Source of the DNA: a virus
IMG/VR virus record: IMGVR_UViG_3300006738_000047
Coordinates: 1 to 29,997 of that record
Length of the DNA: 29,997 nt
Strand: one strand, 5' to 3'
This document shows, one piece after another, positions 7,377 to 29,997 of the stretch. A program made the translations under genes and the position numbers. The number at the start of each line of letters is the position of its first letter. The first letter of the stretch is position 1. Below the pieces are notes generated by a model, which was given only the letters and a program-made list of their open reading frames with translations, was not told the origin of the DNA and did no database searches.

Positions 7377-8576
7377 TTAAAATGCTCCACCCTCATCCCA
7401 TCTAATGATATCATCAAACTTGCAGAGGGAACCATCATTTGTCCAATATGTTTCGATTATTTTTCCTGATTCTAATACTCGGAATCTATGCCAAATTTTT
7501 GGCATGACCGCGAAACTATTGCCTGGCTCCAAGATTGTTGACGTTTCTAGAGACGGTTCATTCTTACAACTACCGAAGCACTCGATTTCTAACACAGCAT
7601 TGGTAGAAATAAAAGAATTCCACCTATCTGCGTGCCAATGTATAGAGCATTGCCATCCTTTATTAACCTCGAGTAGGCTTTCTCCCAGATGTTCATCGTA
7701 AAAACGATGCCAAGCACGTCCCCAGCATTTTTCCTCCCATGTTGGTTTGTAGTAAACCGTGAATAGTTGCTCTATCCACCTATTAAATTCTGCTGTGGTT
7801 CTGTCGAGCTTTCCTGCATTGCAGTATGTGCAACATGGTACAACATTGGTTTTAATATATCCTTTGGTGTTGTCAATCCTGTCTATTCCGTTATAGACAT
7901 AATCGCCATTATTGTGGGTACTTTTTTGCACTTTTTGTGGTGATGATCCACAGTAATGACAATTTTGACTGGTTAAATGTATGAACAGTTCCTTGCAGAT
8001 TCTGAATTTGATACCCCTCTTTTTTGACGATTTTTTATACGTTAGATATAATCTATGCTGTGCAGCAAGACCGTAACCAAATCTGCATTTTGGATCGTTA
8101 CAATCAGTGCTTGAATTTTGTAAAGTGCTGGTTGTTCTGACTACTTCGTTGCCGCAATCACATTTACATAGCCATTGATTACTGTGTTTGTGGCCATTTA
8201 TTATTTTGTATCCAGCATGTTTCAAAACAATCAACTTACCGAATTTCAATCCCGATAGATCTCTTTGACATTTTCCACAACTTGTCGATCTACCATCCAA
8301 CAAATGGTATTTAACAACAGGTTTTTCAGTTCCGCATTCGCATCGGCATAATGCGTTTTTGCTTGAAATGATTCCAGTTATTATCCACTTTCCATATCTA
8401 TCATCGATTTTGACGGCATTTTTTAGGCATTTTCCACAACTGGTTGATTGACCGTTTAACAGGTTATACTTGTTTACATTTTTTTCAGTGCCACATTTGC
8501 ATTTGCAGAGAACATATTTTCCATGTGCCTCTTGTAAAATTGTCCATTTTCCATATTCTTTTGCCAATTTTACCAT
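7377..8576 (-). CDS. HNH endonuclease fused to a C-terminal cupin domain
   Basis: A 399-residue protein on the minus strand. I prefer the ATG at 8576; a TTG at 8621 is in frame. Residues 1-165 contain three copies of a zinc-binding repeat: LCKCKCGTEK...SCGKC (24-50), LCRCECGTEK...SCGKC (77-103), LCKCDCGNEV...CNDPKC (137-164). Each starts with Y/F-G-K-(W/L). These repeats are common as DNA-binding modules in phage HNH nucleases. Residues 206-270 are an HNH domain: CHYCG, then GIDRIDNTKGYIKTNVVPCC, then YCNAGK. Residues 284-399 are a cupin-like beta barrel: WGRAWHRF, LLEVNKGWQCSIHWHADRW with H313 and H315, and LEPGNSFAVMPKIWHRF with H363. The usual cupin glutamate after H-x-H is not evident. 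The HNH part suggests a homing endonuclease; the cupin role is unknown. No internal start codon lies before the cupin. Base composition is visibly more AT-rich than its neighbours, which fits recent insertion. Confidence 0.85.
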   Translation of the reverse strand: MVKLAKEYGKWTILQEAHGKYVLCKCKCGTEKNVNKYNLLNGQSTSCGKCLKNAVKIDDRYGKWIITGIISSKNALCRCECGTEKPVVKYHLLDGRSTSCGKCQRDLSGLKFGKLIVLKHAGYKIINGHKHSNQWLCKCDCGNEVVRTTSTLQNSSTDCNDPKCRFGYGLAAQHRLYLTYKKSSKKRGIKFRICKELFIHLTSQNCHYCGSSPQKVQKSTHNNGDYVYNGIDRIDNTKGYIKTNVVPCCTYCNAGKLDRTTAEFNRWIEQLFTVYYKPTWEEKCWGRAWHRFYDEHLGESLLEVNKGWQCSIHWHADRWNSFISTNAVLEIECFGSCKNEPSLETSTILEPGNSFAVMPKIWHRFRVLESGKIIETYWTNDGSLCKFDDIIRWDEGGAF

Positions 8577-8654
8577 TTCAAACAAGCCTTGCAGTCGGGG
8601 ATAACAACAATTGCTTAACAAGGTATATTTGAACTGATAAAATTGAGGTCAGAT

Positions 8655-26333: not shown

Positions 26334-27956
26334 ATGTTACCTACCAGAGCAACCAAACGCCAACGCTTCAGTGGCGGCGGTCGTCGACAACTTGTTGAAG
26401 GTGCTGGCCAAGGTCGCCGCCCACTCACAGAAGACGCCACCGATCTGCACCAAGCATCCGTTATTCACGAAGCCAAGAAAAACCAGCTCGTGAGTAAATG
26501 GTCACCAGTCCTACGAAAATGCCGTGAAGTATCACAGCAAAAATTCGGACTCATGGCCGCCATCCTCGAAAACCAGTACAATTGCTGGAACCCCGAGAAC
26601 CGATCGGTCATCCTCGAAGACCAAACCACCACAGCCAACATCGCCGACTTCACACGATTCGCACTACCGCTAATCCGCAAGTCATACCCAAAGCTGATCG
26701 CAGACAACCTCGTCGGCGTCCAGCCAATGAGCCAACCAGCATCACTCATTTTCTACATCCGATACCGCTACGCCCTCACCAAGGGCCAAACGGTCGCCGG
26801 AACACAAATCATGCGTCAGAACACCGCACAGGTGTTCGCCCGCCAAAACGGATGGGCACTCGACCCGTACTACTCCTCACAAGAAGTACGCGGCGAAGAC
26901 GCCACAATCACCGGCAACACAGTAGTTTCCGCGACACTAGCACACCGCCCAGTCCTGGCCGGAACAGTCGTCGTCGAAGCATTCGAAACCGAAGCCGAAG
27001 CCGATCCAAACTGTGAAGAATCAGTACCATGCCTCCGAGTCAGCTTCGACTCCGATGGCTCACCCGACGTCGTTCTCGTCGGCGACTGCACAAACTTCAC
27101 CGACAACCTAGCCGTCGACACCGCAACAACCGGTGCCACCGAATTCAACCACACGAGTGGCGCCGTCCAAATCACACTGTCCGCAGGCGTCTTCCCAGCC
27201 GGAGCCGTCGCCAGAGTCAACTACGAATACGACCTGGAAGCCAACCCATTCCAGCCAGAAGTCACACTGAGCATCGACAGCGACTCAGTCGCCGCGATCA
27301 CTCGGAAACTAAAGACTTCCTGGAGCCTCGAAGCCGCCCAAGACCTCAAGTCAGTTCACAACATCGACGCCGAATCCACCCTCACCGACCTAATGGCCGA
27401 CGAGATGGTTGCGGAAATCGATCGTGAAATCATCAACGACCTGATCATTGCAGCCGCCATCCGAGCAGACCACAACTTCGCAACGGCTGCCGGAGCATCC
27501 GTCAACTTCACCGACCGCAACATCGCCCTGATGTACAAAGTCCTCGAAGTTGCCAACATCATCCACCGCACCACACTCCGTGGCCCCGCGAACTGGATGG
27601 TCATGAGTGCCGACATCTGCTCCAAATTCGAGCAGTTGAACGACTTCCGAGCCAGCGACGCATTCACCACCGAAGGCGTCGACATCGGAATCATGAACAT
27701 CGGCACAATCCAAGGCAAGATGAAGATCTACAAAGATCCACTCTTCCCCAATTGCAAAATCCTAATGGGCTTCAAAGGCAACTCAGTACTCGACGCCGGT
27801 TACTTCTACGCCCCATATATCCCACTGCTCAGCACCCCAACAGTGCTGGACCCGAACAGCTTCACCCCCAATAAGGGCGTGATGACGCGTTATGGCAAGA
27901 AGCTGATCGAAGATGGCGGGCTTTACTACGGCGTGGTAACTGTTAGCAATCTCTAA
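26334..27956 (+). CDS. gp23: Major capsid protein (gp23-like)
   Basis: A 540-residue protein close to T4 gp23 (521 aa), behind AGGAG. Residues 1-35 hold a basic leader with two possible cut sites, L20-V-E22 and L31-T-E33. The HK97-like core is visible: FALPLIRKSYPKLIADNLVG followed by V-Q-P-M-S-Q-P (a strong gp23 signature), IFYIRYRYA, TRKLKTSWSLEAAQDLKSVH, EMVAEIDREIINDLIIAAA, LRGPANWMVMSADICSKFEQ, then FKGNSVLDAGYFYAPYIPLL and TRYGKKLIEDGGLYYG. An extra domain of about 100 residues (TGNTVVSATLAHRPVLAGTV, then acidic EAEADPNCEESVPCLRVSFD) is inserted. Codons end in C far more often than in most neighbours, as expected for the most highly expressed gene. Confidence 0.95.
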   Translation: MLPTRATKRQRFSGGGRRQLVEGAGQGRRPLTEDATDLHQASVIHEAKKNQLVSKWSPVLRKCREVSQQKFGLMAAILENQYNCWNPENRSVILEDQTTTANIADFTRFALPLIRKSYPKLIADNLVGVQPMSQPASLIFYIRYRYALTKGQTVAGTQIMRQNTAQVFARQNGWALDPYYSSQEVRGEDATITGNTVVSATLAHRPVLAGTVVVEAFETEAEADPNCEESVPCLRVSFDSDGSPDVVLVGDCTNFTDNLAVDTATTGATEFNHTSGAVQITLSAGVFPAGAVARVNYEYDLEANPFQPEVTLSIDSDSVAAITRKLKTSWSLEAAQDLKSVHNIDAESTLTDLMADEMVAEIDREIINDLIIAAAIRADHNFATAAGASVNFTDRNIALMYKVLEVANIIHRTTLRGPANWMVMSADICSKFEQLNDFRASDAFTTEGVDIGIMNIGTIQGKMKIYKDPLFPNCKILMGFKGNSVLDAGYFYAPYIPLLSTPTVLDPNSFTPNKGVMTRYGKKLIEDGGLYYGVVTVSNL

Positions 27957-27976: not shown

Positions 27977-28005
27977 AAAACCCCGTTCTCGGACGGGGTT
28001 TTTTT
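27977..28005 (+). terminator. Rho-independent terminator after capsid gene
   Basis: The arms aaaaccccgt and acggggtttt form a 10-bp stem with loop tctcgg at 27987-27992, followed directly by a T run to 28005. It lies 20 bases after the capsid stop and closes the head transcript. A 13-base direct repeat (aaagattcgaaaa) precedes and touches the stem. Confidence 0.92.
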
Positions 28006-28020
28006 ATGCGCGTTCACTTC

Positions 28021-28060
28021 TTCATTCCAAATAAGTAAGGCAATATGTATTGGGAATGAA
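28021..28060. repeat. Inverted repeat between terminator and HNH-methyltransferase
   Basis: ttcattccaaata at 28021-28033 is the reverse complement of tattgggaatgaa at 28048-28060 except at one position, with a 14-base loop. The outer 8 bases (ttcattcc / ggaatgaa) pair perfectly. It lies 37 bases upstream of ATG 28098. It may be a regulatory site for that gene, a nuclease or methyltransferase target, or part of the boundary of an inserted cassette. Confidence 0.5.
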
Positions 28061-28097: not shown

Positions 28098-29615
28098 ATG
28101 TCTAAAATATGTTCGATCTGTGAGTTTGAAAAAGGATTATCAGAATTTCCGAAAACCGGGACGGCTTGCAAGAAATGCAAAGCACAGAAATTACGTGAAT
28201 TTAGACAAACAGATCCTGAAGCTGTTGCAAAAAGAAAGAAGTATAGAGAAAAAAACAGAGATACAATAAATGAACAAAAACGAGCAAGCTACCGTCGCAA
28301 TTCAACTCAGGTAAAGACTGCGAATAATCAGTATTATCATAATAATACTGATAAATGCCGGGCGAGGCAGCGAGAATATCAAGAAAGAATCGAGACTGAG
28401 TCTATGGATTCATGGCTCGCCAAATGCTTTAAACATTGTAAGAAATCAGATAAGGATTGTGGACGTGAATTTTCAATCACATTGGATTATGTGATAAAAC
28501 TATGTGAGCGACAAGAGAGCCGCTGTGCTTTGACGAATATTCCTATGACACATCAGAGGAATGATCCATTTGCCGCTTCTATTGACCGTAGAGATTCTAA
28601 ACTAGGCCATATCCCTGGTAATGTTCATATAGTTTGCAGGGCTGCTAATTTGGCCAAACGAGAATTGTCAGATGCAGCAATAATAGAATGGTTTAGAGCC
28701 GTGGCTCAACATTTGCCAATAGTTGAATTTGATGGCTTAAATCATGAGGCGACTGCAGATTATCCAGAAATCAAAAAAGATGCAGTTAGAAATTGTTTGT
28801 TGAAAAATTTTGAGTGGGCTCCTCCACAATATGAACATAATGAATTGTTGCAAGATTGGGACAATGTATTAACTGAGTCCACAGAGAATTATATCTGCAA
28901 TGATTTTTGCAGATCACAGAAACCATCTAATAAGCAATATTCTGGGAAGAGACTGATTTGGCATTTTCAACCACATTTGTGGGCTGTCAGAACACAGAAA
29001 AAGCCTCTTATGGAAGAGGCTTGGAACAATAGTAAAATTCGGGATAGGACTGCTACTAACTTAGTGGATGGTAGAACCAGGATTTCGCAAGATAGAGTTA
29101 TTCGTGAATTCATTTTCGCTGGTGCTGGCGTTCCGTCTATTATGCACCCCGGATTTGCTAAAGCAGTTTTGGATGAATATGGGGTTAAGCCTGGCACAAC
29201 AGTATTTGACCCATTTGCTGGATGGGGGTCTAGGATGTTAGCGACTGTTGCGTTGCAAGCTCAGTATATTGCTGTTGATAAATCTCCTCCAACTGTAGAT
29301 GGCTTGCAAAAAATGCTGGGTTATTTAGAGAGAGATGCAAATGTTATGTGTGGGGACGTTTTTGATTGTGGAATTCCGGATGTAGATGTTTTGTTTACAT
29401 CGCCCCCTTTTGGGACTGAAGAATATATTGATTCAGATGCGGTTATCGATTTAAACAAATTGGTAGAATTGACAAAGCATATTAAATTAAGGATACTTCA
29501 TCTTAATGGAGCTATGCTTGAGCTTCTTGAATGCGATCATAAGGCTGTTCCAATATTAACTAAGTCTAAGATTAGCAGTAAGAATACTCATGAATATTTG
29601 GTAATTTTGGATTGA
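28098..29615 (+). CDS. HNH endonuclease fused to a DNA methyltransferase
   Basis: A 505-residue protein from ATG 28098, with AAAGG 6 bases upstream. Residues 5-27 form a treble-clef knuckle (CSIC...CKKC). After a basic, helical linker, residues 143-200 are an HNH domain: CALTNIPMTHQRNDPFAASI, D163-R-R-D166, LGHIPGNVHIVCRAANLAKR, then EWF. The C-terminal half is a SAM-dependent methyltransferase: VFDPFAGWGSRMLATVALQA with motif I FAGWG (373-377), IAVDKSPP, and motif IV TSPPFG (S435-P-P-F438). SPP(F/Y) is typical of N4-cytosine or N6-adenine DNA methylases; the order I then IV is that of alpha/gamma-type enzymes. The DPFAGWGxR loop occurs in phage DNA methylases. The region 260-350 (FQPHLWAVRTQKKPLMEEAW) could recognise DNA. 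It is AT-richer than the capsid gene. Homing nuclease with added methylase, or a cut-and-modify enzyme, are both possible. Confidence 0.85.
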   Translation: MSKICSICEFEKGLSEFPKTGTACKKCKAQKLREFRQTDPEAVAKRKKYREKNRDTINEQKRASYRRNSTQVKTANNQYYHNNTDKCRARQREYQERIETESMDSWLAKCFKHCKKSDKDCGREFSITLDYVIKLCERQESRCALTNIPMTHQRNDPFAASIDRRDSKLGHIPGNVHIVCRAANLAKRELSDAAIIEWFRAVAQHLPIVEFDGLNHEATADYPEIKKDAVRNCLLKNFEWAPPQYEHNELLQDWDNVLTESTENYICNDFCRSQKPSNKQYSGKRLIWHFQPHLWAVRTQKKPLMEEAWNNSKIRDRTATNLVDGRTRISQDRVIREFIFAGAGVPSIMHPGFAKAVLDEYGVKPGTTVFDPFAGWGSRMLATVALQAQYIAVDKSPPTVDGLQKMLGYLERDANVMCGDVFDCGIPDVDVLFTSPPFGTEEYIDSDAVIDLNKLVELTKHIKLRILHLNGAMLELLECDHKAVPILTKSKISSKNTHEYLVILD

Positions 29616-29713: not shown

Positions 29714-29739
29714 AAGCCCGGTTCCAGCCGGGCTTTTTT
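29714..29739 (+). terminator. Rho-independent terminator after HNH-methyltransferase
   Basis: aagcccgg at 29714-29721 pairs with ccgggctt at 29728-29735 around loop ttccag; the T run extends to 29739. It lies about 100 bases after the methyltransferase stop and separates it from the next gene. The stretch 29616-29713 contains no convincing gene. Confidence 0.9.
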
Positions 29740-29791: not shown

Positions 29792-29997
29792 ATGAAGCTT
29801 AGTGCTATTATTGAGGTTGATTCGCGGCGGGACTTCCTTAAGAAGTCTGGTGCGGGCATTGCTAATACTGCTGTTCCTGGGGCTTCTGTTCCTGGGGCGT
29901 TGGCTCCTGCTGTTTCTGCGATTGTTCCTAGTTTTGATTATTTGTGGAATCCGTTGTGGGGATATTGGACTAGCCGTGAGAAAGGTTATGATTTTTC
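29792..29997 (+). CDS. Unknown protein with SRRDFLK motif, 3' end outside window
   Basis: ATG 29792 opens a frame that stays open to the end of the window (68 codons). It begins MKLSAIIEVDSRRDFLKKSG, followed by an alanine- and proline-rich stretch (VPGASVPGALAPAVSAIVP) and WNPLWGYWTSREKGYDF. SRRDFLK fits the twin-arginine export motif (S/T)RRxFLK. The first eight residues (MKLSAIIE) also resemble the capsid-targeting leaders of T4 internal proteins, with I-I-E as a possible prohead protease site. The two readings make different predictions and cannot be separated without the rest of the gene. Product unknown. Confidence 0.6.
   Translation, partial: MKLSAIIEVDSRRDFLKKSGAGIANTAVPGASVPGALAPAVSAIVPSFDYLWNPLWGYWTSREKGYDF

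Follow-up and report, generated by a model that had tools for sequence, protein, structure and literature searches.

A PacI-like HNH nuclease fused to a DNA methyltransferase at a mobile nuclease hotspot behind the capsid gene of T4-like phages

Why should a nuclease and a DNA methyltransferase share one polypeptide directly behind the capsid gene of a T4-like virus? Homing endonucleases and restriction-modification systems have long been suspected to be evolutionary neighbours, yet they are treated as separate kinds, and a preliminary description of this locus offered two readings of the protein, either an enzyme that both cuts and modifies or a homing nuclease with an attached methylase. We addressed the question in the window, i.e., the whole stretch of 29,997 nucleotides taken from IMG/VR virus record IMGVR_UViG_3300006738_000047, whose numbering is used throughout, and in the capsid-gene neighbourhoods of its relatives.

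The presence of an HNH nuclease and a DNA methyltransferase in one polypeptide, as proposed in the preliminary description, is borne out by the reading frame, the domain matches, other contigs and homologous fusions. The open reading frame of the fusion (28098..29615, + strand) runs for 505 codons from the ATG at 28098 to the stop at 29613-29615 with zero internal stops in the translated window, a TTG two codons upstream (28092) being a possible alternative start. Residues 1-205 of the 505-aa product comprise a Cys4 zinc knuckle and an HNH nuclease, and residues 206-505 a complete SAM methyltransferase. In the AlphaFold model of the full chain, both halves are predicted with confidence (mean pLDDT 90.8), while their relative placement is less certain (pTM 0.64). 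A DUF559 match at residues 204-260 (E = 0.016) is under the cut-off and was taken as chance. Three other IMG/VR contigs from separate samples carry an identical or near-identical gene, one of them differing by a single amino acid, and two further virus groups carry full-length homologous fusions with 48% (L087/L088) and 46% (L060-L062/L089-L091) identity to the window protein, likewise directly 3' of a gp23-like capsid gene. Since the same gene recurs in other contigs and homologous fusions occur in other virus groups, a chimera produced by misassembly or a sequencing frameshift, for which we found nothing in favour, can be dismissed with near certainty. A wider search of IMG/VR with the three fusions as queries found no further HNH-methylase lineages. 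Catalytic residues are retained in both halves across the three fused lineages. Between the window and L087, one half has diverged as far as the other (48% and 47% identity; dN 0.46 and 0.49) and synonymous sites are near saturation (dS >1.5 or saturated), indicating that both halves are under purifying selection. Because the stretch between the domains has no in-frame ATG, the first one falling at residue 305, the methylase is probably not made separately from the fusion.

The nuclease half matches phage HNH endonuclease families over residues 65-203 (phrog_3322, 4.6e-20; phrog_1035, 5.1e-18). It begins with the N-terminal Cys4 zinc knuckle (28110..28178, +; C5, C8, C24 and C27), invariant in 15 HNH proteins of the hotspot and aligning with the knuckle of PacI, and continues into an HNH (beta-beta-alpha metal) domain (28437..28694, +), whose catalytic core, SIDRRDSKLGHIPGNVHIVCRAANLAK (28578..28658, +), contains nine residues, S161, D163, R164, D166, G170, N175, C180, N184 and K187, that are invariant across the same 15 proteins, fused and stand-alone alike. 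A profile built from the HNH proteins of the locus matched one solved nuclease, the Type IIP restriction endonuclease PacI (E = 2.6e-6), with the knuckle and the VDRSDS...N core aligned, and the nuclease half modelled alone (mean pLDDT 95.2) has PacI as its only PDB fold match below E = 0.001 (6.5e-4). By profile and by predicted fold, the nuclease half is thus PacI-like. The general base of the reaction is a histidine in most HNH enzymes and a tyrosine in PacI. No counterpart of this tyrosine was identified in the window nuclease; the residue after D163 is an arginine, as in PacI, and H152, present in most members, may stand in place of the catalytic tyrosine. D163 and N175 correspond to the Asp/Asn metal ligands of the core, a scheme described for PacI and Hpy99I (PMC4081073). 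PacI differs from the fusion in being a chain of 142 aa, as opposed to 505 aa, in having no methylase, and in its much shorter helical stretch between knuckle and core.

The second half begins with a region common to fused and stand-alone relatives (PPxY...LxxD...GKxLIWHFxPHLWxVxT; 28713..28952, +), itself without an in-frame ATG, followed by the catalytic domain of a SAM-dependent DNA methyltransferase (28953..29612, +), assigned from family matches, alignment and the structural model. Residues ~286-445 match DNA methylases (PADLOC mad2, 1.6e-10; Pfam N6_N4_Mtase, 1.6e-4, below the gathering cut-off), and the C-terminal half has weak PHROG matches (phrog_12517, 2.7e-9; phrog_498, 9.7e-4). In an alignment of 19 relatives, motif I (DPFAGWG at 29208..29228, +; family form DPxxGWGxR, with D, P, G, W, G and the next R invariant) and motif IV (TSPPF at 29397..29411, +; family form TSPP[FY], with TSPP invariant) are conserved throughout. 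TSPP[FY] is the classical form of N4-cytosine methylases, and a relative that stands alone in Vibrio phage 2.058.O is assigned to the entry for N4-cytosine-specific methylases, IPR017985. Judged by its motifs, this half is an amino-methyltransferase with an N4-cytosine signature, whose predicted product would be m4C. Stand-alone relatives of about 330 aa with the same motifs I and IV are common in phages (e.g., NVP2058O_092 of Vibrio phage 2.058.O and WNM50628.1 of Staphylococcus phage Alsa_2); these neither carry a nuclease part nor adjoin the capsid gene, so that the comparison proposed in the preliminary description, whether DPxAGWGxR methylases lack the HNH part, is answered plainly in the affirmative for methylases encoded elsewhere than beside the capsid gene. 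A plasmid search with the methylase half gave a single weak match. No obvious target-recognition domain lies 3' of motif IV, and a specificity shared by the two halves is for this reason not evident.

RNA rather than DNA might be the substrate of this half, i.e., it would modify tRNA or rRNA, and the HNH half would be an unrelated homing nuclease. The closest solved folds are indeed Trm11-type RNA methylases (tRNA m2G10), alongside other SAM enzymes, and NCBIfam TIGR01177 is matched at 9.1e-7, though far below the family cut-off. However, the invariant motif IV has the N4-cytosine DNA form, one relative is classified under IPR017985, pithovirus N4-cytosine DNA methylases are among the closest predicted folds of viral proteins, and fusion to a DNA nuclease agrees with DNA as the substrate, making an RNA substrate very improbable.

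The fusion lies behind the major capsid protein gene (26334..27956, +; gp23-like, Pfam Gp23 1.4e-79, phrog_138 1.3e-81) of a T4-type head module; a phosphotriesterase match within the capsid protein is a chance one. The terminator hairpin of the capsid gene (27977..28002) is kept behind the gene in relatives with every cassette type compared, and a second rho-independent terminator (29714..29735, +) follows the cassette, confirming the earlier placement of the cassette after the capsid gene and between two such terminators. The next gene starts at 29792 (29792..29997, +; an open reading frame beginning MKLSAIIEVD...) and runs past the window end. Independent transcription of the cassette, also suggested for the locus, is plausible in view of the two hairpins, but promoter-like matches are at chance level (7 observed against 5.0 expected) and no T4-type TATAAATA was found in the window, so that a separate cassette promoter is not demonstrable. 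The GC content of the window cassette is 36-41%, compared with 50-58% in the neighbouring capsid region.

A few further features of these surroundings were recorded. The hexamer ATGTAT occurs after the capsid terminator (28044-28051 in the window, same place in relatives) in 24 of 59 distinct loci as against 5.3 in shuffles, and is possibly a promoter element, although we left this enrichment out of the evidence because the sequences compared are related. Genes near the capsid gene that start MKLSxIxE(S) are found in the window (29792-29997) and in L026, L032, L033, L036 (four genes) and L037; this start may be a leader that targets the product to the capsid and is cleaved by the S77 prohead protease. 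Elsewhere in the window, on the - strand and antisense to its neighbours, 7377-8621 encodes a 414-aa composite with repeated CxC-type motifs, an HNH domain at residues ~188-286 and a C-terminal cupin or cysteine-dioxygenase-like stretch (phrog_7851, 1.5e-8).

The content of the site in other viruses places the fusion in a wider pattern. Among the 80 capsid-gene neighbourhoods fetched, 56 distinct loci had enough sequence for counting, and in 44 of these the models used detect a nuclease, a modifier or both at a variable site right after the conserved capsid terminator. The occupants include stand-alone HNH genes, HNH-methylase, LAGLIDADG-methylase and TnsA-like nuclease-methylase fusions, HNH genes with an overlapping methylase gene, and Vsr/MTES-like nuclease-Mom fusions; Pfam confirms LAGLIDADG_3, TnsA-like and Mom domains among the site proteins. 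Counted without regard to kinship, each of the 25 dereplicated capsid-flank methylases has a nuclease joined to it, in 21 cases by fusion to an HNH, LAGLIDADG or TnsA-like partner and in four through an HNH gene that overlaps the methylase gene (by 4-29 bp), whereas by the same models, and again ignoring kinship, only one of 45 methylase relatives away from the capsid gene is so joined. Three nuclease folds have been swapped onto one methylase family. Stand-alone HNH genes with no methylase occupy the site in 13 of the 56 loci, so the HNH element can persist there without one.

The individual architectures are diverse. Fusions of HTH, LAGLIDADG and methylase (556-625 aa) lie behind the capsid gene in L018, L035, L048, L066, L068, L071, L076, L084 and L105, and elsewhere in a 341-kb virus (L092/L093). 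Proteins of 613-729 aa joining HTH, a TnsA-like (gp4 head-completion-like) nuclease and a methylase are likewise placed behind the capsid gene (L020, L023, L038, L046, L052, L077, L084, L095, L096, L131 and L162), and a Vsr/MTES-like nuclease fused to Mom is encoded behind it or a few kb before it in L018, L024, L029, L040, L044, L045, L048 and L066. In L058, L059, L067, L075, L076 and L084, two PacI-like HNH domains stand in tandem in a protein of ~250 aa, perhaps a single-chain pseudo-dimer, whose gene mostly overlaps a methylase gene by 4-29 bp, with a 63 bp gap in L076. A contig of an Altiarchaeales MAG (L163:3426-5714) encodes a 762-aa protein with LAGLIDADG_2, HTH and methylase parts (Pfam), away from a capsid gene by the model used and close to a gene that weakly matches a transposase. 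This protein comes on top of the one joined methylase counted away from the capsid gene.

Quick trees of the methylase, HNH and capsid sequences, together with comparisons of near-identical phages, show how this content moves. The methylase tree unites the HNH fusions in a single clade (SH-aLRT 99), nested in a larger one of 17 rows (97) that consists mostly of methylases from the capsid site and includes LAGLIDADG and TnsA fusions; the stand-alone phage methylases from elsewhere make up a separate 34-row clade (99). Because fusions to all three nuclease types share a methylase clade, related methylases have changed their nuclease partner several times. In the HNH tree, fused domains and double-HNH proteins whose genes overlap or abut methylase genes make up one group (SH-aLRT 94), outside which lie the single HNHs, mostly methylase-free; two single HNHs adjoining the TnsA-methylase gene of L096 fall in the other HNH group. 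Carriers of the HNH-methylase fusion occur in three places of the capsid-gene tree, requiring three separate placements of the fusion, and L010, the closest capsid relative of the window, has no cassette. Two phages, L048 and L049, share 97.5% DNA identity until 4 bases before the capsid stop and none after, where the former has a LAGLIDADG-methylase and the latter an HNH; upstream, L048 carries a ~2.4 kb insertion with a nuclease-Mom gene that is absent from L049. L040 and L043 are 96% identical into the flank, in which L040 has a ~2 kb HNH-bearing block missing from L043. The capsid 3' flank is thus a nuclease hotspot with mobile content that differs between near-identical phages. Its location, the exchange of its content and the PacI- and LAGLIDADG-type nucleases point to homing-type mobility, while the regularity with which a modification enzyme is attached speaks for restriction-modification.

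How these two aspects are related is where the explanations diverge. The main rival to a restriction-modification-like element, to which we assign a minor but appreciable probability, is a plain homing endonuclease with hitch-hiking cargo, in which the HNH part would cut the cassette-free capsid 3' flank and be safe through its own insertion, and the methylase would guard against host restriction, the two activities being unrelated. A nuclease hotspot adjoining an essential gene agrees with this explanation, since T4 segD, which lies between genes 23 and 24 (PMC2988022), and homing endonuclease genes generally (PMC10448857) are placed in this way; outside the capsid flank, stand-alone relatives of the methylase are frequent in phages, and the methylase-free HNH genes at the same site keep the explanation alive. 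Mere cargo, however, should vary in kind, whereas here the joining is systematic, with three nuclease folds on one methylase family, and the methylase-partnered HNHs form their own group, with partner genes overlapping by 4-29 bp. Because the nuclease is PacI-like and its joining to a methylase is systematic at the site, functional coupling is favoured over hitch-hiking.

Coupling of another kind would arise if the nuclease domains guided the methylase by binding or nicking DNA, yielding a targeted methylase (e.g., one that marks the capsid region for late expression or packaging) with weak or absent cutting. HNH homing enzymes are often nickases, such as T4 MobA and MobE (PMC2988022), the methylase, having no obvious recognition domain of its own, might borrow one, and many relatives have helix-turn-helix parts beside or replacing the nuclease. 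This arrangement is nevertheless unlikely, given that the HNH catalytic residues are invariant in every fused and stand-alone member compared, and that the zinc knuckles of HNH restriction enzymes are structural and not reading heads (PMC4081073). An intein, an intron or a ShiLan-type insertion was rejected as the origin of the fusion, as the HNH part lies at the N-terminus and members of the methylase family align from end to end, uninterrupted.

Of the two readings offered in the preliminary description, the evidence supports a blend: the homing part is upheld by the hotspot and its mobile content, and the cut-and-modify part by the PacI-like nuclease and the systematic joining, hitch-hiking alone being less favoured. 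We therefore propose, at a confidence evenly balanced between acceptance and doubt, that the fusion is a mobile restriction-modification-like element, with both parts on one chain, found in T4-like phages whose capsid is of the gp23 type; these are probably jumbo phages, since the contigs of several relatives measure 340-408 kb. In this proposal, the methylase half would mark the phage's own DNA with m4C, and the nuclease half would cut unmarked DNA present in the same cell, be it that of cassette-free relatives, of other competitors or of the host. When the break is repaired with the marked genome as template, the cassette would be copied into place behind the conserved capsid gene. The element would in this way act as a homing endonuclease that owes its immunity, at least in part, to modification. 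With both activities on one chain, it would resemble a Type IIC enzyme, and the two halves would be expected to act on a common specificity.

Several known systems share parts of this design. The combination of nuclease and methyltransferase in one enzyme is familiar from the Type IIC enzymes (MmeI, BpuSI), which have the same order of an N-terminal nuclease and a C-terminal methyltransferase in one polypeptide. These mostly pair a PD-(D/E)XK nuclease with a gamma-class NPPY methylation domain (PMC4081073), whereas the fusion has HNH and TSPPF, lacks an evident C-terminal recognition domain and sits at a phage hotspot. The principle of a nuclease-modifier fusion is likewise already known from the Mom-nuclease proteins of jumbo phages (Iyer et al. 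2021, PMC7824862), predicted to be restriction-modification systems in which the modification shields phage DNA and the nuclease attacks host or superinfecting phage DNA. Relatives of the window have genes of this type beside the same capsid gene, but their modifier is a GNAT-fold Mom and their nuclease has the REase fold; Pfam finds no Mom match in the window protein, in contrast to relative L029 (1.4e-17). The free-standing homing endonucleases of T4-like phages (seg/mob) also adjoin an essential conserved gene, have a sporadic distribution and a low-GC foreign look and are bounded by terminators, yet those of T4 lack a methylase, and segD is oriented the other way. The nuclease gene described here shows the same trait, adjoining a conserved essential gene and occurring sporadically among close relatives. 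The ShiLan element (PMC11855218) similarly combines an HNH endonuclease with a DNA methylase at one phage locus; there, the HNH gene is inserted within the methylase gene in another reading frame, whereas the HNH part of the fusion is in frame and N-terminal and the methylase is uninterrupted.

The fusion itself matches no standard annotated family, an outcome on which the preliminary description had let its claim depend: a full-length match was found in none of 50,697 named phage records, and no matching family in Pfam, PHROGs, NCBIfam or PADLOC. Isolated phages of the named collection yielded no HNH-, LAGLIDADG- or TnsA-methylase fusion, nor did the literature searched yield a published description of one. 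According to a 2025 paper (PMC11855218), no strong association of HNH endonucleases with methylases was known as yet; the capsid-flank locus displays such an association, and its fusion is a candidate PacI-type cutter with the methylase built in.

The same design may extend beyond HNH. As a tentative generalization, we suggest that T4-like phages, probably jumbo ones, harbour a general class of mobile "homing restriction-modification" elements, in which at least four kinds of nuclease (PacI-like HNH, LAGLIDADG, TnsA-like and Vsr/MTES-like), each joined to an N4-cytosine methylase or to Mom, would have spread behind and before the capsid gene, with self-immunity drawn from base modification beyond the disruption of the target. 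Since immunity would derive from base modification, homing and restriction-modification would be one mechanism in this class. A hotspot at which one methylase family is joined again and again, through fusion or translational coupling, to homing-type nucleases of differing fold would be a natural setting in which to test the link between homing and restriction-modification.
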